A stretch of DNA of 64,000 nt from Argopecten irradians (lineage: Eukaryota > Mollusca > Bivalvia > Pectinida > Pectinidae). Every line of letters begins with the position of its first letter. Within the stretch, counting starts at the first letter, position 1. Shown piece after piece: positions 3,311 through 64,000 of the stretch. The DNA lies in NCBI RefSeq assembly GCF_041381155.1, contig NC_091142.1, positions 33,302,369 to 33,366,368 of the forward strand, read 5' to 3'. The position numbers were made by a program, and so were the translations under genes. The notes under the pieces were generated by a model. The model did not search any database. It had not been told where the DNA came from and saw nothing but the letters and a program-made list of their open reading frames with translations.

Positions 3311-3319
3311 TGACCAGTA

Positions 3320-6785: not shown

Positions 6786-6856
6786 TGTGATTTTATAACT
6801 AGTGGTTCTGATATATTTGATTTTTATAGACTTTAAACAATCGTGTGGCTCTTGCA

Positions 6857-40500: not shown

Positions 40501-43500
40501 TAGCTTTGGCAACTATATACAGTATATTGACCATAGATTCCAATATCTATGATAGTGTACAGGGGATGATTGTACAGTGTATATAAAATCAATTATTTTG
40601 CCTGTCTTCAACAGACTCCATGTTTTTATTTTGACTTTGTAGTTAATAAGCTTGATATGGACTGAAGTTTGTTTTGAAATTTAAAAAAAAATGTTACTGG
40701 TATAAAAATAAGATAATAAAATTATAATGGTTTTTTTTTCAGATTGCAGAAAATCCATATATGTACGACTGTCATGTAGAACTCATCAAAATCCTGCGCC
40801 AGATGGGAGAGCTTAGCCGTCTGAGGGATGCCAGAGAGAAAATGAGTGAATTATTTCCATTAACAGAAGGTACCTGATGAGAGTACATAGACTGTTTCTG
40901 TTACTGTACTGGTAACAGAAGGTACCTGATGAGAGTACATAGACTGTTTCTGTTACTGTACTGGTAACAGAAGGTACCTGATGAGAGTACATAGACTGTG
41001 TCTGTTACTGTACTGGTAACAGAAGGTACCTGATGAGAGTACATAGGCTGTTTCTGTTACTGTACTGGTAACAGAAGGTACCTGATGAGAGTACATAGAC
41101 TGTTTCTGTTACTGTACTGGTAACAGAAGGTACCTGATGAGAGTACATAGGCTGTTTCTGTTACTGTACTGGTAACAGAAGGTACCTGATGAGAGTACAT
41201 AGACTGTGTCTGTTACTGTACTGGTAACAGAAGGTACCTGATGAGAGTACATAGGCTGTTTCTGTTACTGTACTGGTAACAGAAGGTACCTGATGAGAGT
41301 ACATAGACTGTGTCTGTTACTGTACTGGTAACAGAAGGTACCTGATGAGAGTACATAGGCTGTTTCTGTTACTGTACTGGTAACAGAAGGTACCTGATGA
41401 GAGTACATAGACTGTGTCTGTTACTGTACTGGTAACAGAAGGTACCTGATGAGAGTACATAGGCTGTTTCTGTTACTGTACTGGTAACAGAAGGTACCTG
41501 ATGAGAGTACATAGGCTGTTTCTGTTACTGTACTGGTAACAGAAGGTACCTGATGAGAGTACATAGGCTGTTTCTGTTACTGTACTGGTAACAGAAGGTA
41601 CCTGATGAGAGTACATAGGCTGTTTCTGTTACTGTACTGGTAACAGAAGGTACCTGATGAGAGTACATAGGCTGTTTCTGTTACTGTACTGGTAACAGAA
41701 GGTACCTGATGAGAGTACATAGGCTGTTTCTGTTACTGTACTGGTAACAGAAGGTACCTGATGAGAGTACATAGGCTGTTTCTGTTACTGTACTGGTAAC
41801 AGAAGGTACCTGATGAGAGTACATAGGCTGTTTCTGTTACTGTACTGGTAACAGAAGGTACCTGATGAGAGTACATAGGCTGTTTCTGTTACTGTACTGG
41901 TAACAAGGTACCTGATGAGAGTACATAGGCTGTTTCTGTTACTGTACTGGTAACAGAAGGTACCTGATGAGAGTACATAGGCTGTTTCTGTTACTGTACT
42001 GGTAACAGAAGGTACCTGATGAGAGTACATAGGCTGTTTCTGTTACTGTACTGGTAACAGAAGGTACCTGATGAGAGTACATAGGCTGTTTCTGTTACTG
42101 TACTGGTAACAGAAGGTACCTGATGAGAGTACATAGGCTGTTTCTGTTACTGTACTGGTAACAGAAGGTACCTGATGAGAGAGTACATAGGCTGTTTCTG
42201 TTACTGTACTGGTAACAGAAGGTACCTGATGAGAGTACATAGGCTGTTTCTGTTACTGTACTGGTAACAGAAGGTACCTGATGAGAGTACATAGGCTGTT
42301 TCTGTTACTGTACTGGTAACAGAAGGTACCTGATGAGAGTACATAGGCTGTTTCTGTTACTGTACTGGTAACAGAAGGTACCTGATGAGAGTACATAGGC
42401 TGTTTCTGTTACTGTACTGGTAACAGAAGGTACCTGATGAGAGTACATAGGCTGTTTCTGTTACTGTACTGGTAACAGAAGGTACCTGATGAGAGTACAT
42501 AGGCTGTTTGTGTTACTGTACTGGTAACAGAAGGTACTGGATGAGAGTACATAGGCTGTTTCTGTTACTGTACTGGTAACAGAAGGTACCTGATGAGAGT
42601 ACATAGGCTGTTTCTGTTACTGTACTGGTAACAGAAGGTACCTGATGAGAGTACATAGGCTGTTTCTGTTACTGTACTGGTAACAGAAGGTACCTGATGA
42701 GAGTACATAGGCTGTTTTGTTACTGTACTGGTAACAGAAGGTACCTGATGAGAGTACATAGGCTGTTTCTGTTACTGTACTGGTAACAGAAGGTACCTGA
42801 TGAGAGTACATAGGCTGTTTCTGTTACTGTACTGGTAACAGAAGGTACCTGATGAGAGTACATAGACTGTTTCTGTTACTGTACTGGTAACAGAAGGTAC
42901 CTGATGAGAGTACATAGGCTGTTTCTGTTACTGTACTGGTAACAAGGTACCTGATGAGAGTACATAGGCTGTTTCTGTTACTGTACTGGTAACAGAAGGT
43001 ACTGGATGAGAGTACATAGGCTGTTTCTGTTACTGTACTGGTAACAGAAGGTACCTGATGAGAGTACATAGGCTGTTTCTGTTACTGTACTGGTAACAGA
43101 AGGTACCTGATGAGAGTACATAGGCTGTTTCTGTTACTGTACTGGTAACAGAAGGTACCTGATGAGAGTACATAGGCTGTTTCTGTTACTGTACTGGTAA
43201 CAGAAGGTACCTGATGAGAGTACATAGGCTGTTTCTGTTACTGTACTGGTAACAGAAGGTACTGGATGAGAGTACATAGGCTGTTTCTGTTACTGTACTG
43301 GTAACAGAAGGTACCTGATGAGAGTACATAGGCTGTTTCTGTTACTGTACTGGTAACAGAAGGTACCTGATGAGAGTACATAGGCTGTTTCTGTTACTGT
43401 ACTGGTAACAGAAGGTACCTGATGAGAGTACATAGGCTGTTTCTGTTACTGTACTGGTAACAGAAGGTACTGGATGAGAGTACATAGGCTGTTTCTGTTA

Positions 43501-46500
43501 CTGTACTGGTAACAGAAGGTACCTGATGAGAGTACATAGGCTGTTTCTGTTACTGTACTGGTAACAGAAAGTACTGGATGAGAGTACATAGGCTGTTTCT
43601 GTTACTGTACTGGTAACAGAAGGTACTGGATGAGAGTACATAGGCTGTTTCTGTTACTGTACTGGTAACAGAAGGTACCTGATGAGAGTACATAGGCTGT
43701 TTCTGTTACTGTACGGGTAACAGAAGGTACCTGATGAGAGTACATAGGCTGTTTCTGTTACTGTACTGGTAACAGAAGGTACCTGATGAGAGTACATAGG
43801 CTGTTTCTGTTACTGTACTGGTAACAGAAGGTACCTGATGAGAGTACATAGGCTGTTTCTGTTACTGTACTGGTAACAGAAGGTACCTGATGAGAGTACA
43901 TAGGCTGTTTCTGTTACTGTACTGGTAACAGAAGGTACCTGATGAGAGTACATATGCTGTTTCTGTTACTGTACTGGTAACAGAAGGTACCTGATGAGAG
44001 TACATAGGCTGTTTCTGTTACTGTACTGGTAACAGAAGGTACCTGATGAGAGTACATAGGCTGTTTCTGTTACTGTACTGGTAACAGAAGGTACCTGATG
44101 AGAGTACATAGGCTGTTTCTGTTACTGTACTGGTAACAGAAGGTACCTGATGAGAGTACATAGGCTGTTTCTGTTACTGTACTGGTAACAGAAGGTACCT
44201 GATGAGAGTACATAGGCTGTTTCTGTTACTGTACTGGTAACAGAAAGTACCGGATGAGAGTACATAGGCTGTTTCTGTTACTGTACTGGTAACAGAAGGT
44301 ACCGGATGAGAGTACATAGGCTGTTTCTGTTACTGTACTGGTAACAGAAAGTACTGGATGAGAGTACATAGACTGTTTCTGTTACTGTACTGGTAACATA
44401 AAGTACTGGATGAGAGTACATAGGCTGTTTCTGTTACTGTACTGGTAACAGAAAGTACTGGATGAGAGTACATAGACTGTTTCTGTTACTGTACTGGTAA
44501 CAGAAGGTACTGGATGAGAGTACATAGGTGTTTCTGTTTCTGTTACTGTACTGGTAACAGAAAGTACTGGATGAGAGTACATAGGCTGTTTCTGTTACTG
44601 TACTGGTAACAGAAAGGTACTGGATGAGAGTACATAGGCTGTTTCTGTTACTGTACTGGTAACAGAAGGTACTGGATGAGAGTACATAGGCTGTTTCTGT
44701 TACTGTACTGGTAACAGAAGGTACCGGATGAGAGTACATAGGCTGTTTCTGTTACTGTACTGGTAACAGAAGGTACCTGATGAGAGTACATAGACTGTTT
44801 CTGTTACTGTACTGGTAACAGAAGGTACCTGATGAGAGTACATAGGCTGTTTCTGTTACTGTACTGGTAACAGAAGGTACCTGATGAGAGTACATAGGCT
44901 GTTTCTGTTACTGTACTGGTAACAGAAGGTACCTGATGAGAGTACATAGGCTGTTTCTGTTACTGTACTGGTAACAGAAGGTACCGGATGAGAGTACATA
45001 GGCTGTTTCTGTTACCGTACTGCTTTCAGAAAATCTTATTATCTCTATGAAATTGTCTCTGTTTTCCTCTAAGCCAAACAAATTACTTGTACATAATCTA
45101 CATATTGCCACACAGTAACCAAAATTTAAATTTATGATATAATCAGTCCTTTCTAGAGTGATTTGTAATTTATTATATTAAGTGATTAAAAGAAGGTTTT
45201 ACTGTACAGATGATTTGAATATTTAGCTGATTACAGAAATTTTATTTTGTACTTATTGAAATTGTATAGTTGTGGAGGAAAGCTGGAGTTCCAGACGAAG
45301 AAACATATTCACTTGTCAATTTCATAACAGTATGGTGGTTTTGAGATATCTTGAGGGTAAAGCAAAATTAACTGTTGATTAGTCCCCCTTCCAGTAATTG
45401 TTATATCACAAAAATCACTGGAAGATGGGACTAATTCATGGTTAGTCATACTTCACCCATGTTGTTTATGTATCTTGAAATTGAAGTAATTGCAATTGTA
45501 TACCAAACTTGCCTATATCATTGTTTTCTTCATATGTTCTTTGAACATCAAACAAGTGCCCTAGTTGTGTATTTTGCTATTGCGGACCTTCCTTTTTTGT
45601 CATGTTTTCTGTTACCATGGAAAAGTACCAAATTATTGTTTTCTTTTGTTTCCGGATTATAACTCCAAAACCGTTCGACGAAGCTCCATGAAACTTTCTG
45701 TATATATCAGACAAGAGCCCTAGTTTTTCCTTTTGCTATCGCAGACCTCCCATTTTGGGAATTTTTTCTGTAACCATGGCAATTTAGTCAAAATTACTTA
45801 ATTACTGTTTCCTTTTGTTTCTGGACTATAACACCAAAACCGTTCCAAGGCAGCTTCAGGAAATTTTCCGAATATATCAGACAAATGCTCTAGTTGTGCC
45901 TTTTGTTATTGCGGACCTTCCATGTTCGGTGTATTTTCTGTTATCATGTAAACTTAGTCACAAATACCAAATTACTGTTTCCTCTTGTATTCGGGCTATA
46001 ATTGAAAACCCATTCAACACAGCTCCATGAAACTTTCTGTATAATACCCTCACAAGTGCCCTAGTTGTTGTGGACCTTCAATTTTTGGAATTTTTTATGT
46101 TACAATGGAAACTCTGTCAAAAATACCAAATTACAGTTTCTTTCTGCTACCTGTTTGTTTCCAGTTTTACAATACTCGCATACATTTAAAGTTATACTTG
46201 AATAATTGTTACATTGACCTTGATGTATTTGGGTTTTTATACCAACTGGGGGACATGGGGGATAATGCCACGCTTTGTGTCTCCTTGTTACTTTTGTAGT
46301 ACATGTACAACTATCTTCAGTTGTCATGGGAATGTACCTCCTGTTGTCATTCCTATGGTTACTCCAATAAGCATTGTTATGTGTTACAGAGCTATGGCTG
46401 GATTGGTTACGAGATGAGATACCCCTGGCCACAGAGGAGACGGAGAGAAGTAAACTTGAACAGTTGTTTGAGAGGGCAGTGAAAGACTATCTCTGTAAGG

Positions 46501-49500
46501 TTCCTAGTCAATCTGATTGAAATACACATCCTTATATAACCACTTCATTAAATAGAGGATCTGACAATATCCCATAAAGGGTCATGTTCGTATGACCTTT
46601 ATATCACCTGTACTTCAGATCACATACATTTTCTACACCTTGCTACATTGATTGCCAATGCCGTTTTTCGTTCCAGTGTACATATACATTAAGCTTTGTT
46701 GTGCTCTTTGGGCGAGATGACTAAATACGCAAAAATAATTCTGACAGTGTTTTCAAACTGTTTTGTCCCTGCTCAAGATTCTGGTGACAGCAATTTATTA
46801 AGCCATTTGCAAAGGTCACCAGAACATGACCCCAAATGGGATGTTGTCAGATCCTCTTATCAATCGTAGTGATGATAAGAATATGTATTTTAATCAGGTT
46901 GGTTCCTAGTGTATAAAGCTCACATATTTTTACATTAAATTCCTTATAATATGCTTTACATGGAAATTAAAAAATGTGTCTTTCAATACCTCGATTGATT
47001 CAGGAAGTATGTCAATTGTTTAACTAAATGTGGAATGTATATTGTTGGTTTGATAATAGTGTGATAATGAGTCAGTTTTGGAACACAAATATACCTAAAA
47101 TTAAATACATTGATCAGTCTAAACATCATCTATATTGTTTATTTGTTTCTGGTTATATTTCCCTCCAATTCTCAATCTTATTAATTTTTTCTGCCCTTCA
47201 ATTTGATGTGTTTGCAGCAATACAAGATAATGTGAAGACCTTGATGTACATGTATCATATAATTGTATAGTTCTGTTTACGGCTTTACAGATCTGTTTAT
47301 GATGTAGTATCTGTTTACAGCTGTACAGATCTGGTTATGTTGTATGATTCTGTTTACAGCTGTACAGATCTGGTTATGTTGTATGATTCTGTTTACATCT
47401 GTACAGATCTGGTTATGTTGTAGTATCTGTTTACAGCTGTACAGATCTGGTTATGTTGTATGATTCTGTTTACAGCTGTACAGATCTGGTCATGTTGTAT
47501 GATTCTGTTTACAGCTGTACAGATCTGGTTATGTTGTATGATTCTGTTTACAGCTGTACAGATCTGGTTATGTTGTATGATTCTGTTTACAGCTGTACAG
47601 ATCTGGTTATGTTGTATGATTCTGTTTACAGCTGTACAGATCTGGTTATGTTGTATGATTCTGTTTACAGCTGTACAGATCTGGTTATGTTGTATGATTC
47701 TGTTTACAGCTGTACAGATCTGGTTATGTTGTATGATTCTGTTTTACAGCTGTACAGATCTGGTTATGTTGTATGATTCTGTTTACAGCTGTACAGATCT
47801 GGTTATGTTGTATGATTCTGTTTTACAGCTGTACAGATCTGGTTATGTTGTATGATCCTGTTTACAGCTGTACAGATCTGGTTATGTTGTATGATTCTGT
47901 TTACAGCTGTACAGATCTGGTTATGTTGTATGATTCTGTTTACAGCTGTACAGATCTGGTTATGTTGTATGATCTGTTTACAGCTGTACAGATCTGGTTA
48001 TGTTGTATGATTCTGTTTACACTGTACAGATCTGGTTATGTTGTATGATTCTGTTTACAGCTGTACAGATCTGGTTATGTTGTATGATTCTGTTTACAGC
48101 TGTACAGATCTGGTTATGTTGTATGATTCTGTTTACAGCTGTACAGATCTGGTTATGTTGTATGATTCTGTTTACAGCTGTACAGATCTGGTTATGTTGT
48201 ATGATTCTGTTTACAGCTGTACAGATCTGGTTATGTTGTATGATTCTGTTTACAGCTGTACAGATCTGGTTATGTTGTATGATTCTGTTTACAGCTGTAC
48301 AGATCTGGTTATGTTGTATGATTCTGTTTACAGCTGTACAGATCTGGTTATGTTGTATGATTCTGTTTACAGCTGTACAGATCTGGTTATGTTGTATGAT
48401 TCTGTTTACAGCTGTACAGATCTGGTTATGTTGTATGATTCTGTTTACAGCTGTACAGATCTGGTTATGTTGTATGATTCTGTTTACAGCTGTACAGATC
48501 TGGTTATGTTGTATGATTCTGTTTACAGCTGTACAGATCTGGTTATGTTGTATGATTCTGTTTACAGCTGTACAGATCTGGTTATGTTGTATGATTCTGT
48601 TTACAGCTGTACAGATCTGGTTATGTTGTATGATTCTGTTTACAGCTGTACAGATCTGGTTATGTTGTATGATTCTGTTTACAGCTGTACAGATCTGGTT
48701 ATGTTGTATGATTCTGTTTACAGCTGTACAATCTGGTTATGTTGTATGATTCTGTTTACAGCTGTACAGATCTGGTTATGTTGTATGATTCTGTTTACAG
48801 CTGTACAGATCTGGTTATGTTGTATGATTCTGTTTACAGCTGTACAGATCTGGTTATGTTGTATGATTCTGTTTACAGCTGTACAGATCTGGTTATGTTG
48901 TATGATTCTGTTTACAGCTGTACAGATCTGGTTATGTTGTATGATTCTGTTTACAGCTGTACAGATCTGGTTATGTTGTATGATTCTGTTTTACAGCTGT
49001 ACAGATCTGGTTATGTTGTATGATTCTGTTTACAGCTGTACAGATCTGGTTATGTTGTATGATTCTGTTTACAGCTGTACAGATCTGGTTATGTTGTATG
49101 ATTCTGTTTACAGCTGTACAGATCTGGTTATGTTGTATGATTCTGTTTTACAGCTGTACAGATCTGGTTATGTTGTATGATTCTGTTTACAGCTGTACAG
49201 ATCTGGTTATGTTGTATGATTCTGTTTTACAGCTGTACAGATCTGGTTATGTTGTATGATTCTGTTTACAGCTGTACAGATCTGGTTATGTTGTATGATT
49301 CTGTTTTACAGCTGTACAGATCTGGTTATGTTGTATGATTCTGTTTACAGCTGTACAGATCTGGTTATGTTGTATGATCCTGTTTTACAGCTGTACAGAT
49401 CTGGTTATGTTGTATGATTCTGTTTTACAGCTGTACAGATCTGGTTATGATGTAGTATCTGTTTACAGCTGTACAGATCTGGTTATGTTGTATGATTCTG

Positions 49501-52500
49501 TTTACAGCTGTACAGATCTGGTTATGTTGTATGATTCTGTTTACAGCTGTACAGATCTGGTTATGTTGTATGATTCTGTTTACAGCTGTACAGATCTGGT
49601 TATGTTGTATGATTCTGTTTTACAGCTGTACAGATCTGGTTATGTTGTATGATTCTGTTTTACAGCTGTTACAGATCTGGTTATGTTGTATGATTCTGTT
49701 TACAGCTGTACAGATCTGGTTATGTTGTATGATTCTGTTTACAGCTGTACAGATCTGGTTATGTTGTATGATTCTGTTTACAGCTGTACAGATCTGGTTA
49801 TGTTGTATGATTCTGTTTACAGCTGTACAGATCTGGTTATGTTGTATGATTCTGTTTACAGCTGTACAGATCTGGTTATGTTGTATGATTCTGTTTTACA
49901 GCTGTACAGATCTGGTTATGTTGTATGATTCTGTTTACAGCTGTACAGATCTGGTTATGTTGTATGATTCTGTTTACAGCTGTACAGATCTGGTTATGTT
50001 GTATGATTCTGTTTTACAGCTGTACAGATCTGGTTATGTTGTATGATTCTGTTTACAGCTGTACAGATCTGGTTATGTTGTATGATTCTGTTTACAGCTG
50101 TACAGATCTGGTTATGTTGTATGATTCTGTTTTACAGCTGTACAGATCTGGTTATGTTGTATGATTCTGTTTACAGCTGTACAGATCTGGTTATGTTGTA
50201 TGATTCTGTTTTACAGCTGTACAGATCTGGTTATGTTGTATGATCCTGTTTACAGCTGTACAGATCTGGTTATGTTGTATGATTCTGTTTTACAGTGGTA
50301 CAGATCTGGTTATGTTGTATGATTCTGTTTACAGCTGTACAGATCTGGTTATGTTGTATGATCCTGTTTACAGCGGTACAGATCTGGTTATGTTGTATGA
50401 TTCTGTTTTACAGCTGTACAGATCTGGTTATGTTGTATGATTCTGTTTTACAGCTGTACAGATCTGGTTATGTTGTATGATTCTGTTTACAGCTGTACAG
50501 ATCTGGTTATGTTGTATGATTCTGTTTTACAGCTGTACAGATCTGGTTATGTTGTATGATTCTGTTTACAGCTGTACAGATCTGGTTATGTTGTATGATT
50601 CTGTTTACAGCTGTACAGATCTGGTTATGTTGTATGATTCTGTTTACAGCTGTACAGATCTGGTTATGTTGTATGATTCTGTTTACAGCTGTACAGATCT
50701 GGTTATGTTGTATGATTCTGTTTACAGCTGTACAGATCTGGTTATGTTGTATGATTCTGTTTTACAGCTGTACAGATCTGGTTATGTTGTATGATTCTGT
50801 TTTACAGCTGTACAGATCTGGTTATGTTGTATGATTCTGTTTACAGCTGTACAGATCTGGTTATGTTGTATGATTCTGTTTACAGCTGTACAGATCTGGT
50901 TATGTTGTATGATTCTGTTTACAGCTGTACAGATCTGGTTATGTTGTATGATTCTGTTTACAGCTGTACAGATCTGGTTATGTTGTATGATTCTGTTTAC
51001 AGCTGTACAGATCTGGTTATGTTGTATGATTCTGTTTACAGCTGTACAGATCTGGTTATGTTGTATGATTCTGTTTTACAGCTGTACAGATCTGGTTATG
51101 TTGTATGATTCTGTTTACAGCTGTACAGATCTGGTTATGTTGTATGATTCTGTTTACAGCTGTACAGATCTGGTTATGTTGTATGATTCTGTTTACAGCT
51201 GTACAGATCTGGTTATGTTGTATGATTCTGTTTACAGCTGTACAGATCTGGTTATGTTGTATGATTCTGTTTACAGCTGTACAGATCTGGTTATGTTGTA
51301 TGATTCTGTTTACAGCTGTACAGATCTGGTTATGTTGTATGATTCTGTTTTACAGCTGTACAGATCTGGTTATGTTGTATGATTCTGTTTACAGCTGTAC
51401 AGATCTGGTTATGTTGTATGATTCTGTTTACAGCTGTACAGATCTGGTTATGTTGTATGATTCTGTTTACAGCTGTACAGATCTGGTTATGTTGTATGAT
51501 TCTGTTTACAGCTGTACAGATCTGGTTATGTTGTATGATTCTGTTTTACAGCTGTACAGATCTGGTTATGTTGTATGATTCTGTTTACAGCTGTACAGAT
51601 CTGGTTATGTTGTATGATTCTGTTTACAGCTGTACAGATCTGGTTATGTTGTATGATTCTGTTTACATCTGTATAGATCTGGTTATGTTGTATGATTCTG
51701 TTTACAGCTGTACAGATCTGGTTATGTTGTATGATTCTGTTTACAGCTGTACAGATCTGGTTATGTTGTATGATTCTGTTTACAGCTGTACAGATCTGGT
51801 TATGTTGTATGATTCTGTTTACAGCTGTACAGATCTGGTTATGTTGTATGATTCTGTTTACAGCTGTACAGATCTGGTTATGTTGTATGATTCTGTTTAC
51901 AGCTGTACAGATCTGGTTATGTTGTATGATTCTGTTTACAGCTGTACAGATCTGGTTATGTTGTATGATTCTGTTTTGTACAGATCTGGTTATGTTGTAT
52001 GATTCTGTTTACAGCTGTACAGATCTGGTTATGTTGTATGATTCTGTTTACATCTGTATAGATCTGGTTATGTTGTATGATTCTGTTTTACAGCTGTACA
52101 GATCTGGTTATGTTGTATGATTCTGTTTTACAGCTGTACAGATCTGGCTAGAGTATGTCCAATATTCTATTGGAGGTATGGGCTTGAAGGGTGGAGTTGA
52201 CCGCATACGTGCTGTGGCTGAGCGAGCACTGACAGCTGCTGGACTTCATGTCACTAGAGGGGCCTATCTTTGGGAAGCCTACCGGGAGTTTGAGAATGCT
52301 ATTCTAGCTGGCTTACTGGTAAATGTCATCATGTGGTGTTTTATAGGGCTGTATCAGTATACTGTGTGAAACTTACCGTAAATTTTGGTGTTCTAGCTGG
52401 GTTTCAATTAAATATCATTATATTGAATTCTACAGGGCTTTAAGGTTCTCTATATGCCCCATTGTATCATCAGTATATATTGTGCATTGTTGCAATGTAT

Positions 52501-55500
52501 TGGGAATACGTATTGTATTGATTAAGATTTTCCAATATCCAGAGATATATATCAGTGCATAGTCTAACACTTACAGCTAAGTAATGACTAGAAAAATGAG
52601 ACTGAAATAAGATGACCAGTTGTACTATAAGATACCTCAGTACCTGTCCACAGAAAGAAAATCCTATATTTACAGTATTTAACTATCTTGTAGCCACAGC
52701 CAGGCCAAGTCGCTACACCTGAGCAGGAGGAAGCTTTTAAGTCACAGCACCAAAGAGTCAACACACTGTTTAAACGACAACTCTCCATACCTTTGTTTGG
52801 TAAGATGTTGGAAGGGTGGAAGTTTTGTATAAATAAACTTTAATGTCATTATTATACAATACCAAATGGGAAAGTTTTCTTTGTCTAAATGACCATTGAA
52901 GATTAACCAATAAAGATCCTTTTTTAATACAACGCGACTAGCGTTTGTTTAAATTTCATTTACTACAATAGATAATTATAATAGATAATCACCCTTCACG
53001 GGATTATCTCCCCTGGGTTATCTCCCTTGGAATGTTGGTACATTCTGGTAATTTACTAGGGCCATTTTAATTGATCCAGTTGAACTGGTTGGACCATTTA
53101 TAAAAGTAATTATTCAAGTATAAATCTTGATGGAACTGCAGATTTTGATACGAGATATGATTTCTTTGTCAAGGCTTGTCTGAAAATAAATTAATCACCA
53201 GATTTAACATTATATTCAAAAATGAACAACTAGGTCCAACCAGTCAAACCATATAAAAGAAAGCAGACTAGGTATGAATTTGACTGGTGACCATTTCATG
53301 TCTTTTGTTTTAGATATGAAAGAGACATACTGTGAATACAAAGACTGGCTACAGGAAGATCTAGACAACTACACAGAACAGACATACAAAAAAGCTTGTA
53401 CCAGTCTGGACAAAATTAAAGCTCTGGAGGAAGCTCTGGTGAGTAACCATGGAGATCCTTGTGTGTCTTTTGTTGTCAATCAGCTCCTGGATATTGATAC
53501 ATATAGATCCTCACCCTATATATGGATGTGGACCAAATAATACGACAGAATCATGATAGTTAGACTCTTCTCTTTAAAGATGCTCCACCGCCAACAGAGC
53601 ATAAAGGATACTCACCATTTGAACAATATTTGGTGTTTAATCATATATACAGTGGCCCCTCGATAATCTGAAAACCTTCGTTTCCAGCCTAAACCGTCCA
53701 GATTACGAGTTTTCGGGAGTGCCGAAGTCTGTGTTCGTAGTCAATTAAATTGTCACATAAGAGTTACTCCCCTTTTCCTTGTAATCGATGATAGGTTTTT
53801 ATGTAATATACATGCATTACAAAAAATACTTTGTTTGTTATGTTTTATAGGTGTTTTTTTATATTATTATGTTAGGAATATTAAATAAACGTATTTCTTT
53901 TTCAAAATACAAAACGGAAAGCCATCGTTAATTGTGTACTATGTATGCATATAGCTAAGTATCTCACTCTTGATCTGTCATACGGCAAATTATGTTTCAA
54001 AATGCCTAACCAAGGATCAATATCATCTACCTTCTTAGCATAAAAGAACTATGATAACAAATAGTTGTGAACATTATAAGAACTAATGTAATTATTATTT
54101 TGTATATTGTGTGTTTTTATTGACCATTTCCACAAGTCTTTGCTTTCTGACTTATAGACGTGTGTAACAACCACGCGCCCGTTCACGTCTAACTTCGTGC
54201 ACAATGTCACACATGTGTAAATGGCATGTGCCGTAGCCTTTTTATCAAATACCATAGACGATTAATTTGAATAGATTCACATACATTTAAAATACTTCTT
54301 AATTTTGTGAGTATTATCTCACTTTAGTGTATCCGAAACTCAGAGCGATATGTATGCGATTCCAGTAAGGTATCTACAGTCAATCTGATTTAAATCAGAT
54401 CTTCGATTACGCTCTGATGGGAGCATATAGTATCAGATTGATTTACAGCATACTGCATGTTTAAAAATGTGTGGCTACAAATATATTGCGTATCTTAATT
54501 ACAACACTGAAGTTTGATCTCTTATAGAAAACCAGTGAACCGTTACATGACTGCATGTACCCTTGTGAAAGTTGTTCAGGTAAACGCCTGTGGCTTTGAC
54601 CTGGCAGCCGTCGTTATGGCAACACACACACACCAGTGTCATTTGGTAGTGTGTATTTTACATATGACTGTAGCTGGCCTTGGATTTTCTTTGCACGTGG
54701 CGACAACAAATTGTCGGGATTATTGCAGGAATTTATTAACAAAAATAACATTCTGTTCCCAAAATGGAGTTCCGGATTCGGAATCCGAATTCCAGAATAG
54801 TGAGTACAAGTAACGTTACAGAAATCTGTTCCCTGACATTTCCGTCCGGATTGTGAGTTTTCCAGACTATCTGCGTCCGGATTATCGCAGGTCCACTGTA
54901 TATATGTCTATTAGATTAGCACAAAACATGTGTAATGAGAACTTCATTCCAGATAGAACAAAATGCCACAGAATTTAATTAATTATTTTTAATAGTTTTA
55001 TCTTGAGGTAAAATTATATGGTCAAACATTTTAACAGTGTAAGTGAAGAAAAATACTTATTTGTCTGCCTTTATTTTTGATAGAGAAAAAATACCATTTG
55101 TCAACAGTGGAGCATCTATAACCTATTGTAAATTGACACACAACCAAAATACTGTTATAATAAAAGTATGCACATACCTAACTCTTTGTCCCATATATGG
55201 ATGTGGACCAATGATGTGACTGAATCATTATTTTTAAACCTTTTGTAAATTGACTCGCATCTATAGAATGCTTTTATTCATAGTAAAAGTAAACCTATGC
55301 CCACAAAAAGTACAGTATTATTAATTTAAAATGCAAGATGATATTTTGTCACAAATGGAATATTCCCAATAGTTACGTTCACATTTTAGTGAGCTTATTA
55401 AAGGACTTTTAGGATTAATCAAATCCCTTAAAGTGAAATTCAATATAGAGTGAATGATTTATGGTTTGGATTGATGTTGTGATGTTACAGGAAGCTGGTG

Positions 55501-58500
55501 AGCCACCAAGGCTAACACAATACAAGACGTATATAGACTTCGAAATAAAGGAGGGAAACCCAAGCCGGATACAGTGCATGTTTGAGCGGGCTTTACAAGA
55601 GAACAGTCTCGACTCAGATCTCTGGATACAATATACTAAATATTTGGTTTGTTACTTTGCTTTATACTAATATCAATTTCCTTATATCATACATGGAGAT
55701 TGTTATCAACTCATTAATAAAATGTCTCCTTTGTGCGTACCCGATATATGTTGTGTTTATACACTAATCGTGTAACAGGACACTAGATTCAATCTGAACC
55801 TCTTTTGTAAAGTTTATTTAGATAAACTGGTTTATAAGTCATTATATTTCATTTATTATTTCAGGGTCCAGTTTCATGAGTATTCCTTAACTTTAAGGGA
55901 TTCTGAAACTTCAAATTCCCCATAGGAAAGCATAGCAAAATTTAAGGGGTGAAATCTTAAAAAAGCTTTTCTTAAAATCTGTTATGCTTTAAATACTATG
56001 GAAAGTCATAAGTTAAAGAATGTTTGTCAAACTGGGCTCAGGTATGATTATGACTGACCTACAGATATAAATGTAAACATACATGTGAGAGGTCACTAAT
56101 ATGAAGTATGTTATAATGTTTATTGTTTAGGATGAGAAGCTGAGGGTCAAGTCGGTGGTACTCCCTGTTTATGAGCGGTCAGTACGGAACTGTCCTTGGT
56201 GTGGTAAACTCTGGCATAAGTACATGTTGGCTATGGAACGATATCAGGAGCCTCATGACAAAATCAAAGGTAGTGTTCCTTAGTGTCTAGTTAGGTGGTT
56301 CATTTATATGTCTAGGTCATGAATCATTACCCATATCTGGCATTCTCCCTCCTAACCATAAGCTGTTCAATTCCATATTGAGGTTATGGCATAAATTCTT
56401 TATCCTCAATACTCCATGGGTTACTATTTACTATTGTTATATCCACACCAGGAATATTTCATAGCAAAACTGAAGGCAGTTTAGGAGAAAAAACTGACTA
56501 ATCACAAGCAGCCTGCAGAGACTTCCTTTGAAGGTTACAGAGAAAGCGAAGCCCAACTTTAAAGCCACTCTGTCAACTACAGCGTACCGTTATTTGATTC
56601 TGTTCAATACATCAAATGACCAAACTATCTGCCTCATCTGGTGCCACCCACAGAGCCTTGCTATGATATATTTCTGGGGTTGGTATAACAACACTGATAG
56701 TAACCCCTGGAATATTGAGGTTGACATTTCAAGTTATTAGGAGACAACCAAATTATTGTTTGTCATAACACTTGTTTGTTTTAACTTGTATTCTCAATAA
56801 CCTGAGGACTTTGACTTGAATTCTGCATTTTGAAATAATTTAAAGTTTTCTTTTCACTGGTAATGTAGCTTTATTGATAAAAAAAATTACACTATAGACA
56901 AGTAAGATATCTGTAATTCGGTCTGACTGTTATACAATATAGACAAGTAAGATATCTGTAATTTGGTCTGACTGTTATACAATATAGACAAGTAAGATAT
57001 CTGTAATTTGGTCTGACTGTTATACAATATAGACAAGTAAGATATCTGTAATTTGATCTGACTGTTATACAATATAGACAAGTAAGATATCTGTAATTTG
57101 GTCTGACTGTTATACAATATAGACAAGTAAGATATCTGTAATTTGGTCTGACTGTTATACAATATAGACAAGTAAGATATCTGTAATTTGATCTGACTGT
57201 TATACAATATAGACAAGTAAGATATCTGTAATTTGATCTGACTGTTATACAATATAGACAAGTAAGATATCTGTAATTTGGTCTGACTGTTATACAATAT
57301 AGACAAGTAAGATATCTGTAATTTGATCTGACTGTTATACAATATAGACAAGTAAGATATCTGTAATTTGGTCTGACTGTTATACAATATAGACAAGTAA
57401 GATATCTGTAATTTGATCTGACTGTTATACAATATAGACAAGTAGATACTGTTTGTTGGAGTACATATCTGCGTGATCAAATGACGAAGTCGTAATTGTC
57501 TGTACTGACTCTGTATGTTTTGCAATTTTTGATGTTACATATAGACAAGAAGATATAAGTCAATCTTAACGACCGCTGTATATGACTGTTATATAGACAA
57601 GTAAATATAGATGCTGGTTTTAATTTGTTGAATGGTTGTTTTTACAGAACTTTAACAGGCTTCCTGTCTGGTTTTAACACCGGGGCAGACTACCTGTTGG
57701 TATGGAGTACATACATAGACTACCTCCGGCGTCGGATCAAATGGGACGAAGGTCAGTAGGCCATGTGGCTCTGTACCTGATACTTCTGTAGTGTTTGTTG
57801 AAAACAGATGTTATTGAATGTTAGCTAGACACTGAAGCAAATACTTCTGAAATTTGTTAAGTGATAAAGGATTCTTTTCTTACTGTCAATGAAGCCTCTT
57901 TGTTTAAGTAACAGATCCATGTAAGATTTTGTGATTCTCCTACAATTCACTTATTTTTCTCCGGATCTAGCTGTGGGAGATTTCTCTGTCAACCCCTAGG
58001 GTATGACAGATTGTCCGCGCTAACCTTTTGAACCTGAAGACAATTACGTGACGTCGCAACTTCATGCAATGTGACTGTGGCGTACATTGTAGATGACATC
58101 ATCAATATTGACATGCAGATGACGGAACCAGGTTCATGTTGCTGTGGAAATGCTTCTTTTTAAGCTATTATCTCGGCAAGCCTCGGCTTGGACGTTCATG
58201 AATTACCCCCCGACGGGTTTATTAAATGTGTTTTATCATGTCGCTCTTGGTAGGAAAAGTATTCTATTAGTTCCTATCCAAGGTGTTGATAAACCACGAA
58301 ATAATTATGCTCTTGTTCACTTAAAAATTTTAAAACATCAGAACAACAGTTATAATTTAGCGGAATTGACGATTATTTACGTAGGCCAAAAGTTTTGTGA
58401 TTTTAAATTTAAGACAGGAAAATTGAAATGATTAAGAGCACTTTTAAAATATTCAATATTTCGACCTAATTTCAAGATTCAATAATTCATTTATGTCATC

Positions 58501-61220
58501 GGTCTGGCCATGCTACTTCCTTACAAATGGTCCACTCAGATAGTCTCAACCGGACAACCTATAGAGTGACTTGTATAAATAGTTTTGAGACTATAATTAT
58601 TGTGAGAAAACTGAATCACAGCCTACATTTCTTTCATGAATCCGAGGAAGACTTTGGATAATCCGTCAAAACTGGTTACACGGCAACAAACATTACAAAC
58701 GACTTGCCAGCGAAAATGTGTTGTAAAAAAATATTACACGCATGCATTGTCTGAAAATAATCGTTCACAGATAATTCCAGGCCATGTGAAGTCAGTAATT
58801 AGGTAATGATTATGTTCATAGCTGAAAAAAATCTACTATGTATCAAAACGAGTTGATTTTGTTATGATCGAAATTTCCGATTGCATTAAAATAAAACGAA
58901 CACAAATCACGGAAATATATTGACACAATTATTTCTTAAATAATGCATGGCAATAAATATATAAACATCCAGTAGCAGGTCTGTTTTGTATTAATACAAT
59001 TCTGTTTTTATTTACTGGCTCGTTGGTTGGCACGAAAGACCCAACCTGTCTATAAAGGCAACCTGTCTATAGTGACCGTTTTTCTGTCTCCCCTTCAGTG
59101 GTCGTTATTGAATGTTAGCTAGACACTGAAGCAAATACTTCTGAAATTTGTTAAGTGATAAAGGATTCTTTTCTTACCATCAATGAAGCCTCTTTGTTTA
59201 AGTAACAGATCCATGTAAGATTTGTGATTCTCCCACAATTCACTTATTTTTCTCCGGATCTAGCTGTGGGAGATTTCTCTGTCAACCCCTAGGGTATGAC
59301 AGATTGTCCGCGCTAACCTTTTGAACCTGAAGACAATTACGTGACGTCGCAACTTCATGCAATGTGACTGTAGCGTACATTGTAGATGACATCATCAATA
59401 TTGACATGCAGATGACGGAACCAGGTTCATGTTGCTGTGGAAATGCTTCTTTTTAAGCTATTATCTCGGCAAGCCTCGGCTTGGACGTTCATGAATTACC
59501 CCACGGGTTGTGATTTTATTGTCGCTCTTGGTAGGAAAAGATTCTATTATTCCTATCCAGGGGTTGATAACCACAATAATTATGCTCTTTTCACTTAAAA
59601 ATTTAAAACATCAGAACAACAGTTATAATGCGGAATTGACGATTATTTACGTAGGCCAAAAGTTTTGTGATTTAAATTTAAGACAGGAAAATTGAATGAT
59701 TAAGAGCACTTTTAAAATATTCAATATTTCAATATTTTCATGATCAATAATTCATTTATGTCATCTATCTGCCATGCTACTTCCTTACAACATGGTCCCT
59801 CAGATTTTCTCACCTACAACCTATAGAGTGACTTGTATTTATAATTTTCACTATAATTATTCTATATAATCTGAATCACGCCTACATTTCTTTCCAGAAC
59901 ACGAGGAAGCTTTGGAGTTATTTCGTCTAACACTGGAGAAAGCTGTGGAACACTTGGCTAGTAAGTAACTGATTATAAGTCTGATTTGAATACAGGCCAA
60001 TTTTCTTTTTCTGTTGATTAATAAGCTCATGGATTACTTTTAACAAATGTTAAATGTAATGTTTTGTTTTTGTTGAACCCATACTGCAAATAAGCTAAGC
60101 CTATTTGGTGTTAGCAACTGAGTTTGATAACTGCGCAAATTTTGATAAAAATTTTGTACCGGGGATTTCTTAGGATGGTGCTTAACTTTATATTCCAAAT
60201 TTTCAAACACATGCAAAACTTTGATGGTCTTAAATTATTGTTGTTTATATTTTGCTAAACTATTTATGTAAAGGATTTCCACTTAATGTTCCAATATTCA
60301 CTACATTTCTTACCTAGATTATGAGGATGGAGATCCATTTGGAACGCTACGACAGTACTGGGCAAACATTGAGGTACGTGTACATAGAAGTTTTCACGTA
60401 TTTATGAAATCTTTGATTGCAACAAAAAAAAAACTATGTGATCAACTATTCTTTGAACCTTGTCTTTCTGATATTCCTTCATTCTGAAGAACCTGTTTGA
60501 TATGTAAATCTGCAGGCAAAATTCTGTAAAAATGTGGCGAAGGCTCGTGAGTTGTGGAGTGGGATTATGACAGAGGGACACGGCAACGAGGCAACCATGT
60601 GGCTCGAGTATTACAAGATGGAGAGGTAATATCATGATAATGCTAAAAGAGTGCCCATCGTAATGCTTACTCTGACTTGCATTCCCATCATGTTTATCAA
60701 TGAAGAAAGGATGTGGTACAATTAGTCAGATAAAATGATTCACTACAGTAACGATGTATCTACCAATTTGAAAGTTCAATCATTAAATGTCAAGCTATAG
60801 AAAGTCATATTTTATAGACCTTCAATAAAAGATCAATAACTTTTATTCTGTTAAGTAAATAATTTCAATTTTATTTCATTTATTTATAAAGAACATAATA
60901 TTTCATTCTCGTATTAATGAATACAAATTGTTTTATGAACCAATCTTGGTTCAAAATTTAGCAATAAATAATCTAATTGTGTAAGGTCCATTATTAATTG
61001 TTGTCAAGGAAACAATGCTATTCAACTTTGTGGTTTATAGAAACAAAACTGTAACAACATATTTTTAAAAAAAAATTGTCTCATTTCAGAATGTATGGAA
61101 ACAACAAACATTGCCGAAAACTTCTGATAAGGGCGCTTAACTCTGTCACAGATTGGCCTGAGAGCATAGATTGGCCTGAGAGCATAGTGGAGGCTTACAC
61201 AAATTTCGAGAGAGAAGAGG
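37556..61220 (+). CDS. sart3: SART3-like HAT-repeat splicing factor (5' part)
   Basis: Fourteen exons: 37556-37753, 37863-37907, 40743-40869, 46390-46494, 52134-52318, 52694-52799, 53314-53438, 55491-55646, 56131-56269, 57659-57751, 59898-59960, 60318-60373, 60516-60625, 61090-61220, about 546 codons. Residues 1-66 are acidic. HAT (half-a-TPR) repeats follow, matching SART3 in order: YDCHVELIKILRQMGELS, LWLDWLRDEIPL, WLEYVQYSIGG, LWEAYREFENAI, RLTQYKTYIDFEIKEGNPSR, NCPWCGKLWHKYMLAMERY, STYIDYLRRRIKW, ARELWSGIM and WLEYYKMER. SART3 (yeast Prp24 relative) promotes U4/U6 snRNP reassembly and recruits USP15/USP4 through its HAT domain, in nucleus and Cajal bodies. The RRMs and C-terminal LSm-binding motif must lie past the window. 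Oddities: exons 3, 5 and 14 abut huge tandem arrays built from their own splice sites; about 10 HAT residues are missing at the exon 9/10 join; DWPESI is duplicated in exon 14. Confidence 0.9.
37966..38282 (+). mobile_element. MITE with ~63-bp inverted ends, SART3 intron 2, copy A
   Basis: The left end CATCCTCGATACTCCAGGGG continues to CTATCTCATAGT. The right end is its near-perfect complement, ending GGAGTATCGAGGATG. The interior (TTTGACCAATCACAGGCTAG on the minus strand) matches copy B at 56402-56722 in inverted orientation. No coding capacity. It shares its terminus with the array at 729-1440. Confidence 0.9.
38650..38911 (-). repeat. tRNA-derived SINE head, split by a Tc1-type insertion
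   Basis: Minus strand from 38911: TAGCTCAGTGGTAGAGC (A-box) followed by ATTCGGCTTGTGTTCGG and a B-box-like GGTTTGAATCT, then a non-tRNA tail. The missing 5' acceptor part (GTGACGAGG) lies on the far side of the transposon, at about 40268-40276. This is a decayed tRNA-derived SINE; the tail boundary near 38650 is a guess. Confidence 0.65.
38912..40265 (-). mobile_element. Tc1/mariner-type DNA transposon, DD34E, inactive
   Basis: 1354 bp flanked by TA (38910-38911 and 40266-40267). The 42-bp terminal inverted repeats start CAGCGC and end CAAGATGGCGG, with 5 mismatches. The minus strand encodes transposase pieces in different frames. From 40012 down there is an HTH region (LVRLMGISEYTIRSIWKR, RSGCPCKLSQLDQ). 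About 39838-39621 matches the usual middle part (TVNQRTVQRILRNNDMKQR). A first-Asp motif VIFSDKSQV lies near 39570. From 39443 to 39021 come the second Asp (DDHTPVH) and WPAQSPDINVIENIW; 34 residues separate this Asp from the Glu. At least two frame changes and stops break it, so it is not autonomous. Confidence 0.92.
40861..45015 (+). repeat. 52-bp tandem array on the exon 3 donor site of SART3 (~80 copies)
   Basis: Starts inside the last nine bases of exon 3 (TAACAGAAG, ending 40869) and continues through GTACCTGATGAGAGTACATA and CTGTTTCTGTTACTGTACTG, then repeats. Every unit therefore repeats the authentic exon-end/donor junction AACAGAAG|GTACCT. Each also has a 9-bp stem hairpin, TTCTGTTAC and GTAACAGAA around TGTACTG, just before the donor. 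Single-base variants mark subfamilies: TAGACTG/TAGGCTG, GTGTCTG/GTTTCTG and GTACCTG/GTACTGG. Open frames on the minus strand (repeats of YVLSSGTFCYQYSNRNSLCT) are a by-product of the repeat. Confidence 0.97.
45480..46150 (+). repeat. Diverged ~175-bp tandem repeats, SART3 intron 3
   Basis: About four units share ATTGCGGACCTTCC, TTTCTGTTACCATGG, CAAATTACTGTTTCCTTTTG and CTCCATGAAACTTTCTG. Divergence is high, so the array is old. It may be the core of a Helitron-like element, but no ends were found. Confidence 0.6.
46495..47264 (+). other. SART3 intron 4, left part
   Basis: AT-rich intron sequence between exon 4 and the 39-bp array. Nothing recognised. Confidence 0.4.
47279..52147 (+). repeat. 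39-bp tandem array on the exon 5 acceptor site of SART3 (~125 copies)
   Basis: The unit is TTGTATGATTCTGTTTACAG, CTGTACAGATCTGG, then TTATG. The real acceptor is the last copy: exon 5 starts at 52134 with CTGTACAGATCTGG, after TTTTACAG. Each unit thus carries a pyrimidine stretch, the AG and the first 14 bases of exon 5. Being 13 codons long, the unit gives long open frames (AVQIWLCCMILFT and MLYDSVYSCTDLV repeats) that are artefacts. Some units are 40 bp (TTTTACAG) or shorter. Leftmost units are the most diverged. Confidence 0.97.
53576..55119 (+). mobile_element. MITE, TTAA-type family, copy 3, split by a pogo-like element
   Basis: Left end TTAAAGATGCTCCACCGCC and right end CAGTGGAGCATCTATAA match the ends of the 27738-28103 copy. 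The interior matches on both sides of the insert at 53650-54898. The right TTAA is changed to ATAA. About 295 bp of MITE remain. It lies in SART3 intron 7. Confidence 0.88.
53650..54898. mobile_element. Non-autonomous pogo/Tigger-like element nested in a MITE
   Basis: 1249 bp flanked by TA on both sides. The left end CAGTGGCCCCTCGATAATCT pairs with the inverted right end CAGTGGACCTGCGATAATCC, with 4 mismatches in the first 21 bp; the style is that of pogo/Tigger elements (Tc1/mariner superfamily). Longer imperfect symmetry continues inward (TCCAGATTACGAGTTTTC against the right end). No transposase motif is visible in any frame. Confidence 0.8.
56402..56722 (-). mobile_element. MITE with inverted ends, SART3 intron 9, copy B
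   Basis: Left ATCCTCAATACTCCATGGGT and right ACCCCTGGAATATTGAGG form the ends. The interior GACTAATCACAAGCAGCC and ACTTCCTTTGAAGGTTACAG matches the inverted interior of copy A at 37966-38282. About 321 bp. The frame crossing it is not a gene. Confidence 0.85.
56893..57440 (+). repeat. 45-bp tandem array, ~12 copies, SART3 intron 9
   Basis: The unit is TATAGACAAGTAAGATATCT, GTAATTTGGTCTGACTGTTA, then TACAA, very uniform (G/A variant at TTTGGTC/TTTGATC). Each unit contains a donor-like CAAGTAAGAT. Unlike the other three arrays it does not touch a recognised exon edge. The long minus-strand frame (SYLSILYNSQIKLQI repeats) is an artefact of the 45-bp period. Confidence 0.95.
57443..57510 (+). 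pseudogene. Decayed copy of SART3 exon 10
   Basis: TGGAGTACATA, then TGATCAAATGACGAAGTCGTA, lines up with exon 10 (TGGAGTACATACATAGACTA and GGATCAAATGGGACGAAGGT) with several small deletions, about 240 bp upstream of the real exon. It cannot code. It is evidence of a local duplication of the exon and its donor. Confidence 0.6.
57811..59920 (+). repeat. Two ~0.85-kb direct copies, second ending in SART3 exon 11
   Basis: Copy 1 (about 57811-58674) and copy 2 (about 59104-59920) start TTATTGAATGTTAGCTAGAC and are collinear throughout, including CCTAGGGTATGACAGATTGT and GATGACATCATCAATATTGA. Copy 2 runs into real exon 11 (TTTCCAG then AACACGAGGAAGC, from 59898). Copy 1 ends with the decayed counterpart TTTCATGAATCCGAGGAAGA, which lacks the AG acceptor. 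About 430 bp of unrelated sequence separates them. Copy 2 is shorter through many 1-3 base gaps. Confidence 0.85.
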
Positions 61221-62895
61221 GTAGGTTTTAACTTTGAAGGAGAATAGGGTAGGTTTTAACTTTGAGAGAGAAGAGGGTAGGTTTTAACTTGGAGAGAGAA
61301 GAGGGAAGGTTTTAACTTTGAGAGAGAAGAGGGTAGGTTTTAACTTTGAGAGAGAAGAGGGAAGGTTTTAACTTTGAGAGAGAAGAGGGTAGGTTTTAAC
61401 TTTGAGAGAGAAGAGGGTAGGTTTTAACTTTGAGAGAGAAGAGGGTAGGTTTTAACTTTGAAAGAGAGAGAGATAGAGGGAGGTTTTAACTTTGAGAGAG
61501 AAGAGGGTAGTTTTAACTTTGAGAGAGAAGAGGGTAGGTTTTAACTTTGAGAGAAGAGAGGTAGTTAGCTTTGAAGAAAGGTTTTAACTTTGAGAGAGAA
61601 GAGGGTAGGTTTTAACTTTGAGAGAGAAGAGGGAAGGTTTTAACTTTGAGAGAGAAGAGGGTAGGTTTTAACTTTGAGAGAGAAGAGGGTAGGTTTTAAC
61701 TTTGAGAGAGAAGAGGGTAGGTTTTAACTTTGAGAGAGAAGAGGGAAGGTTTTAACTTTGAGAGAGAAGAGGATATTTTAACTTTGAAAGAGAAGAGGGT
61801 AGGTTTTAACTTTGAGAGAGAAGAGGGTAGGTTTTAACTTTGAGAGAGAAGAGGATATTTTAACTTTGAAAGAGAAGAGGGTAGATTTTAACTTTGAGAG
61901 AGAAGTTGGTAGGTTTTAACTTTGAGAGAGAAGAGGGAAGGTTTTAACTTTGAGAGAGAGAAGAGGGTAGGTTTTAACTTTGAGAGAGAAGATGGAAGGT
62001 TTTAACTTTGAGAGAGAAGAGGGTAGGTTTTAACTTTGAGAGAGAAGAGGTAGGTTTTAACTTTGAGAGAAGAGGTTTTAACTTTGAGAGAGAGAGGGTA
62101 GGTTTTAACTTTGAGAGAGAGAGAGAAGAGTAGTTTTAACTTTGAGAGAGAGAGATGGTAGGTTTTAACTTTGAGAGAGAAGATGGTAGGTTTAACTTTG
62201 AGAGAGAAGAGGGTAGGTTTTAACTTTGAGAGAGAAGATGGTTGATTTAGCTTTGAGAGAGAAGAAGTTAGATTTTAACTTTGAGAGAGAAGAGGGTAGG
62301 TTTTAACTTTGAGAGAGAAGAGGGTAGGTTTTAACTTTGAGAGAGAAGAGGGTAGGTTTTAACTTTGAGAGAGAAGAGGGTAGGTTTTAACTTTGAGAGA
62401 GAAGAGGATATTTTAACTTTGAGAGAGAAGAGGGTAGGTTTTAACTTTGAGAGAGAAGAGGGTAGGTTTTAACTTTGAGAGAGAAGTAGGTAGATTTTAA
62501 CTTTGAGAGAGAAGATGGTAGGTTTTAACTTTGAGAGAGAAGATGGTAGGTTTTAACTTTGAGAGAGAAGAGGGTAGGTTTTAACTTTGAGAGAGAAGAG
62601 GGTAGGTTTTAACTTTGAGAGAGAAGAGGGTAGGTTTTAACTTTGAGAGAGAAGAGGGTAGGTTTTAACTTTGAGAGAGAAGAAGTTAGGTTTTAACTTT
62701 GAGAGAGAAGAGGGTAGGTTTTAACTTTGAGAGAGAAGAGGGAAGGTTTTAACTTTGAGAGAGAAGAGGGTAGGTTTTAACTTTGAGAGAGAAGAGGGTA
62801 AATTTTAACTTTGAGAGAAAAGAGCGTAGGTTTTAACTTTGACAGAGATGAGGGCAGGTTTTAACTATGAGAGAGAAGAGGTTAAGTTTTAACTT
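61210..62895 (+). repeat. 28-bp tandem array on the exon 14 donor site of SART3 (~60 copies)
   Basis: Exon 14 ends TTTCGAGAGAGAAGAGG at 61220, followed by the donor GTAGGTTTTAAC. The array unit is TTTGAGAGAGAAGAGG then GTAGGTTTTAAC, so every unit repeats the exon end and the donor. Units vary (GGGAAGG, GATGG, GATATT, extra GA pairs) and decay towards the right end near 62895. Confidence 0.96.
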
Positions 62896-64000
62896 GATTA
62901 AAAATTATGTTTTCACCAAACTTTGCTAAAATATACATTAACATCCCTTATGAAAGGTTCTTCATTTGGTTTCTTTCCAATGAAGATAATTACGCAGTAA
63001 TCAATTAGTAAAGAATTCTTAAAATAGAACGGGTTGATTTGCATAGTTAAAAATACCTCGTGTATACGTATATGTTCGATACCCGGATATAGTAAACAAA
63101 ACAAGCATGGCCGAGACAGAGGGCAGTTTTGAGGAAACGGTGAGCAATACAATGTTCTATAATTGTTTTAGTATATGATACATATTAGATTTCATTTATT
63201 ATAAATGTGTCCTGTCAAAGGTTACATATAGTTTATATAGAGCATAATACAAAATATGTATTAATCGAAAAATAGTGAATGTAAATAGTGAAATGCATAC
63301 ATGGGGCACCATATGGGGTATTTTATCGTACAAATATAAACACGTGGCTGTGTCAATTTTGGTGATGATCAGTTGATTTTCTTTCCTCTCGTGTAATAAT
63401 TTGAGATAAATACAGTATTAATCCAAACTATATATAGATAAATAAATACCATGATGCTACTAATCTATTCATAATTTGAGAGTAAGGAGAGCACAGTATA
63501 TCTAAATACTTAGAACATACGTAAAGAGGTGGACTAATAGGTTACTATGTATTATAACTGCTTTCTATTTATTCTTTGGGTGGGTATTTTATAACGATAT
63601 TCGTCTATGAAATATGTGATAGTATATGCAGGTACATATAGATGAAAGATCACTGGAATCGACGCTAGTCGAGATACATCAATCTGTATGTTGTATCTAT
63701 ATACCGATACCTGTCGAAATTTCATTTCTGTATAATTAACTGATTAAATGTTTTTCGATTACGTTTCGTGTATTTAGAGAAGGATCATTATATACATCAA
63801 GTAGTGATTACCAGGTGCATGAGTCTAAATTATCGTATGGGCATTTTTAGCTATAAGCCTACAATTTTATGTACACGGATCGAATTAAACTAATCAAAGA
63901 CTCGCATTTAAATTAGTACAAACGTCAGTATTAGATTGACTAAGGGGATATAAATATTGTCAGATTATCGGAGTTTCATCATTAAAAAAACACAACATAT
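62896..64000 (+). other. Right edge: intron sequence with one candidate first exon
   Basis: AT-rich. If SART3 continues, this is its intron 14. A short open piece at 63106-63138 begins ATGGCCGAGACAGAGGGCAG and reads MAETEGSFEET, ending at a good donor (GTGAGC). It could be the first exon of another plus-strand transcript, but it is too short to identify. Confidence 0.3.

Follow-up and report, generated by a model that had tools for sequence, protein, structure and literature searches.

Why should several tandem arrays within a single gene sit on the very borders of its exons? The question is raised by the SART3 gene of Argopecten irradians, considered here within a window of 64,000 nucleotides (the whole stretch of DNA analysed: RefSeq assembly GCF_041381155.1, contig NC_091142.1, positions 33,302,369 to 33,366,368 of the forward strand), in which three arrays, A1, A2 and A3, run across the borders of exons 3, 5 and 14, respectively, and a fourth, A4, may contain a microexon of only 4 nt. 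The presence of several junction-spanning arrays within one gene is unusual, and a preliminary description had proposed that they share a mechanism, such as R-loop formation or replication-fork slippage at splice signals, or that arrays are tolerated by selection only if the border retains a functional site. The reading that we favour, with a probability of about 0.66, is that these arrays are ordinary minisatellites which grew from short tandem duplications that happened to include an exon edge.

The spliced model of SART3 comprises 14 exons within the window, follows the GT-AG rule throughout and is presumed to run past the window end (Table 1). Its frame is open across the 14 exons, apart from the join of exons 9 and 10, and, over its residues 81-532, the model protein matches 5jpz and 5ctq, two structures of human SART3, at E of about 1e-142 (8.7e-143 for 5jpz). 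Tandem Repeats Finder (TRF) and this model agree with the preliminary description, whose exon numbering is the same, that the arrays at exons 3, 5 and 14 straddle real borders, namely two donors and one acceptor. In the A1 unit the donor is preceded by 9 nt from the end of exon 3, and in the A3 unit by 13 nt from the end of exon 14, whereas in the A2 unit the acceptor is followed by 14 nt from the start of exon 5. When each of the model's 27 exon edges, with 40 nt on either side, was compared with the window by BLAST (E ≤ 0.05), junction-spanning repeats appeared at only 3 of the 27, those of A1, A2 and A3, with the junction covered in 78 of 80, 122 of 123 and 54 of 57 array matches, respectively; the acceptor region of exon 11 gave one extra match, at 58611-58635, which lacks the junction.

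Table 1. Features of the window and their coordinates; a slash in a unit marks the exon-intron border.
Feature	Position	Strand	Details
SART3 gene, exons 1-14	37556..61220	+	start codon at 37556
SART3 exon 3	40743..40869	+	donor inside first A1 copy
SART3 exon 5	52134..52318	+	acceptor inside last A2 copy
SART3 exon 9	56131..56269	+	phase 1 at its end
SART3 exon 10	57648..57751	+	direct join with exon 9 gives a stop; alternative in-frame acceptor 11 nt inside
SART3 exon 14	61090..61220	+	donor inside first A3 copy
Array A1	40861..45022	+	TRF: 52 bp x 80.0, 97% matches; unit TAACAGAAG/GTACC...
Array A2	47263..52147	+	TRF: 39 bp x 124.9, 97% matches; unit ...TTTACAG/CTGTACAGATCTGG
Array A3	61208..62895	+	TRF: 28 bp x 61.0, 88% matches; unit GAGAGAGAAGAGG/GTAGG...
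Array A4	56888..57452	+	TRF: 45 bp x 12.6; unit ...AG/ACAA/GTAAG...; may hold a 4-nt microexon together with an acceptor and a donor for it
Intron 3 array, off exon edges	45547..46146	+	160-170 bp, about 2.5 copies (self-alignment); TRF 45621-46037, 170 bp x 2.5
FET-like gene	17250-29450	+	upstream of SART3, limits judged by eye; SYGQ-rich, with RGG repeats and a RanBP zinc finger (PF00641, E 2.1e-6)
tRNA gene	416-489	-	Rfam RF00005, 68 bits
Diverged 155-bp tandem array	32893-34289		between the FET-like gene and SART3
Possible first coding exon	63107-63139	+	ATGGCCGAGACAGAGG... then gtgagc; just past A3, could belong to another gene

By TRF coordinates, A1 to A3 sum to 10,735 bp, in keeping with the more than 10 kb first estimated. 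GT is intact in all 80 copies of A1 and in 44 of 60 copies of A3 (2 of the 62 parsed copies, gapped in both columns, were dropped), and AG is intact in 119 of 125 copies of A2; the some 260 duplicate splice signals announced earlier correspond to 243 copies with an intact GT or AG among 265 counted. The 52, 39 and 28 bp units had been called unrelated, and 12 local comparisons gave no sign of relatedness between arrays, the lowest p against shuffled sequence being 0.050. The uniformity of most copies fits minisatellite turnover: copies equal to the consensus without insertion number 47 of 80 in A1, 85 of 125 in A2, 26 of 62 in A3 and 6 of 13 in A4. Of the four units, that of A1 was searched: a 30-base fragment of it had no exact match in viral contigs, and exon 5 had no relative in prokaryote contigs, as expected of an animal gene.

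When considered from the point of view of the message, the inner copies look like passengers, splice signals that probably have no function of their own. An in-frame stop lies 8 nt past exon 3 and another 11 nt past exon 14, so that every inner donor of A1 and A3 would yield a stop, and of the 116 A2 acceptors tested, 115 fail to leave exon 5 open, the last one being the exception. The copy adjacent to the exon body is therefore the only one found that keeps the reading frame open. The possibility that exon 5 extends in frame across A2, where the consensus unit is open, was rejected, since only 39 of the 116 acceptors are in frame, yet only the true one is open throughout. Nor are the splice-signal columns (9 of 52 in A1, 16 of 39 in A2 and 9 of 28 in A3) better conserved than the remaining ones, with column identities of 0.950 versus 0.994 in A1, 0.992 versus 0.997 in A2 and 0.931 versus 0.987 in A3.

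Other parts of the gene have been duplicated as well. A direct duplication of about 0.87 kb in intron 10 (57810-58675 versus 59104-59936, 797 of 871 columns identical) reaches 39 nt into exon 11, where the upstream copy has TG in place of the acceptor AG. Within exon 14, 20 nt upstream of A3, there is an exact 18-bp tandem duplication (61150-61187), which is in frame and encodes DWPESI twice.

The favoured reading draws together the occurrence of junction repeats at 3 of 27 edges, the uniform copies, the signal columns of A1 to A3 that are no better conserved, the inner sites that break the frame, the two further tandem duplications of SART3 (0.87 kb into exon 11 and 18 bp in exon 14) and the precedents considered at the end of this text. 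According to it, a short tandem duplication across an exon edge would have been expanded by unequal exchange or slippage; the spliceosome would pick the exon-proximal copy by means of exon definition, and the remaining copies would leave as part of the intron, allowing the arrays to grow almost unseen by selection.

A4, which the preliminary description did not include, might add a fourth junction array to this set. Exon 9 joined directly to the acceptor at 57648 reads through seven residues of the stretch considered before it meets a stop, and a search for intervening exons with a length of 4+3k nt and a maximum of 61 nt returned 51 stop-free candidates. The 14 candidates of length 4 are all ACAA, 13 of them in the A4 copies and one in a decayed copy at 57597, and both AG and GT are intact in 13 of 13 parsed copies. 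With ACAA included, the frame across exons 9 and 10 and the human length would be restored, and the product aligns without a gap to human SART3, the sole comparison for orthologue fit (158.2 bits). Microexons as short as 1 nt have been reported, and validated, in plants (PMC8831610). The ACAA donor scores 3.2, near the top 1% of regional GTs (a set that includes the A4 copies), and the acceptor is weak, at -3.4 in most copies against a regional median of -4.6 over all AGs; these weights, like all splice-site weights used here, are approximate frequencies. When 8000 random 45-mers from introns were treated as arrays, a 4-nt exon with equally strong signals occurred in 0.04% of them, an equally strong exon of whatever length restores the frame, to a maximum of 31 nt, in 0.4%, and an AG-N4-GT of any strength, provided that it was free of a stop, in 11.7%. 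By splice-signal sum the best of the 51 candidates is a 25-nt exon at 56654-56678, but this one was discarded, as it lies inside a dispersed repeat (56402-56724) and, of the three versions compared, gives the worst fit to human SART3 (151.3 bits). The microexon nevertheless remains a candidate only, because the alternative acceptor of exon 10 is nearly as strong (1.4, versus 1.8 for the main one) and restores the frame without a microexon, with 155.1 bits and a five-residue gap against human SART3. Judged on these sequence features, the presence of a microexon in A4 is a tentative proposition, with odds somewhat short of even.

How often would arrays fall on junctions by accident? To model this, each array was collapsed to one unit and the units were placed randomly in the gene, counting 27 edges, without adding those of the microexon. 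The arrays entered were A1 to A4 and the 160-bp array of intron 3, which likewise had not been mentioned in the preliminary description and which, lying off the exon edges, is a counter-example within SART3 itself; the 0.87-kb duplication was left out; a unit of that length would usually include an edge. A random short unit straddles an edge by at least 4 nt in 4.5 to 9.4% of placements, and the 160-bp unit does so in 25.5%. For the four short-unit arrays alone, P is 0.0013 that three or more fall on junctions, and an alternative formula without the 160-bp array gives, for 3 of 4, P 0.00085 if the overlap is set at 4 nt and 0.00036 if it is set at 8 nt. All of these values are post hoc, SART3 having been picked for the pattern itself.

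Several results weigh against an ordinary minisatellite origin. Random placement puts at least 3 of the 5 arrays on junctions with P 0.008, and at least 4 of the 5, when A4 is counted, with P 0.00035. Selective tolerance, which the preliminary description had raised, fits as a reason for the persistence of the arrays; however, tolerance by splicing explains their survival and not a preference for edges over introns, and alone it leaves the excess unexplained, because purely intronic sites, which make up most of the target, are tolerated too. The only slippage microhomology seen at the array ends was CAGAA, shared by the far flank of A1 and the unit start, with nothing clear at the other ends. 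In A4, moreover, the signal columns are more uniform than the rest (1.000 versus 0.982, 13 copies). Finally, substituted cells, which among copies are not independent events, fall in signal columns in 36 of 56 cases in A1, 17 of 26 in A2 and 36 of 51 in A3, a heaping that could reflect selection against decoys, or else chance through amplification. Counted by variable columns, the excess in A1 to A3 is slight (3 of 10, 7 of 13 and 8 of 17 in the signal, respectively, and 0 of 3 in A4).

An alternative is that a mutational mechanism linked to splice junctions or to co-transcriptional splicing, such as R-loops or fork slippage at splice signals, starts arrays at exon edges in this lineage. Such a mechanism would account for the position of 3 of 5 arrays (P 0.008), or of 4 if the candidate microexon is counted (P 0.00035), and for units so unrelated that their origins look independent; it would also agree with the positive sense-strand GC skew of all four units, which are G-rich (0.27 in A1, 0.29 in A2, 0.82 in A3 and 0.23 in A4), values reached by 14%, 15%, 1% and 20% of intronic windows, respectively. 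However, the gene was chosen post hoc, and the skew resembles that of the other junctions of SART3 (mean 0.24 at 11 donors and 0.20 at 10 acceptors), with only A3 being stronger, so that it cannot serve as a specific signature and the R-loop idea put forward earlier is left without specific support. There is no common DNA fold either, as only A2 and, in part, A1 fold well (z -3.4 and -2.0, versus 0.6 for A3 and -0.1 for A4), and nothing similar occurs in the FET-like gene of the same window. We thus consider a junction-linked mechanism unlikely as an explanation, and the inference from three arrays in one gene to a shared cause keeps only its first half: random placement seldom gives the pattern, whereas a shared cause is not shown for a gene picked for that pattern. 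More doubtful still is the wider proposal that arrays of this lineage start preferentially on splice junctions through splicing- or transcription-coupled mutation, with SART3 harbouring donor arrays, an acceptor array and an array of 13 interchangeable 4-nt microexon copies, any of which would give the same protein. At the opposite end, chance and selective reading alone would suffice if the genome is rich in arrays and a reader picked one gene that has several: the window holds tandem arrays outside SART3 too (898-3961, 6569-6796 and 32893-34289), and P 0.008 is not extreme across many genes, although the coincidence within one gene reaches P 0.00035 if A4 contains the microexon. As a complete account this is rather improbable, about as much so as the wider proposal, and the cautious answer for the several SART3 arrays on junctions is a mixture of chance, ascertainment and a duplication-prone gene.

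SART3 is itself a splicing factor, and its arrays might function as decoys, offering poison splice sites by which SART3 output is tuned, for instance as an autoregulatory splicing sensor, the use of an inner site leading to premature stops and mRNA decay. This would be in agreement with the frame being broken by the inner A1 and A3 sites and by 115 of 116 A2 acceptors, and with GT being retained in 80 of 80 A1 donors. Early stops are, nevertheless, expected of intronic sequence anyway, 16 of 60 A3 copies lack GT, and in three of the four arrays the signal columns are no better conserved, which makes a decoy function very unlikely. An assembly artefact, whereby the arrays would be absent or far shorter in the real genome, could be read into the halves of the intron 10 duplication, where gap positions outnumber mismatches (43 versus 31 over 871 columns), a pattern that can reflect read errors. 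Yet A1 variants are common to non-adjacent copies (one type in copies 3, 7, 9 and 11, another in 1, 2, 5, 39 and 76) and the 14 exons are in frame, the question of exons 9 and 10 aside, so that such an artefact is hardly credible.

If the arrays are real in the living genome, SART3 would be a natural test of how the spliceosome chooses one among 80 to 125 near-identical sites, and also of exon edges as hot spots of repeat birth. It may serve as a warning for annotation, too: junctions within such arrays are probably easily misplaced, and annotators would overlook an exon of 4 nt that is concealed by a repeat.

As for the surroundings of these arrays, the FET-like gene, analysed at a TRF score of 30 and without a full exon model, had no intronic array comparable to those of SART3, the largest being 24 bp x 2.4 and 23 bp x 2.0; its coding glycine-rich repeats were set aside in this comparison. 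Intron 2 of SART3 contains, on the reverse strand (39021-40045), open fragments that, by a motif, tentatively resemble a Tc1/IS630-type transposase. A related dispersed element is found at 37958-38290 and 56402-56724, with inverted arms in both places, and at 738-1442, where it forms a 47-bp tandem array.

The earlier statement that no system of this kind had been described is too strong. The minisatellite of human IFI6, for instance, is reportedly located across an exon end. This minisatellite (the gene is also known as 6-16 or G1P3) supplies several splice donors, an observation that PMC4526556 credits to Turri, Cuin and Porter (1995). The likeness to SART3 lies in minisatellite units that carry splice donors, and, as in a repeat of the IFI6 type, the units of A1 to A3 include an exon end together with a splice site and occur in copies with intact dinucleotides. 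The difference is that two downstream units of IFI6 are used as donors, whereas in SART3 use of the exon-proximal copy is presumed; SART3, in turn, combines in a single gene three or four arrays with unrelated units, one composed of acceptors and another possibly consisting of a complete microexon. A further precedent (PMC2812944) is a set of human tandem repeats at exon-intron boundaries in segmental duplications, with 162 alignments before manual inspection and 27 intron modifications after it. These repeats share with SART3 the minisatellite-size units at exon-intron borders, but they average 30-bp units in 4 copies and may form new introns, whereas the SART3 arrays have tens of copies in a single gene.

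Two other systems resemble SART3 in part. In the dual-specific splice-site array of UBC, introns are embedded in tandem repeats, and repeat growth is argued to be less harmful if the repeat can be spliced out (PMC10809524). Both cases are tandem arrays of splice sites, but in UBC one site acts as both donor and acceptor and an intron equals a whole number of units, whereas each of the SART3 introns concerned has an array at one end only. A UBC-type array was accordingly rejected, given that introns 3 and 4 have one end only in an array and the far end of intron 14 lies beyond the window. Intron gain by tandem genomic duplication, as described in PMC4974935, likewise involves intragenic tandem duplication that bears on introns; unlike it, A1 to A3 imply no new intron and lengthen existing ones. 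An intron gained by duplication was set aside for SART3, as A1 and A2 each hold only one splice site of their intron and the acceptor matching A3 lies beyond the window. Among the matches listed in the open-licence literature, no paper dealt with several junction-spanning arrays in one gene. Single junction-spanning arrays are thus already known, and what is new in SART3, as far as these searches show, is the combination of several such arrays within one gene, including an array of acceptors and a possible array of microexons.

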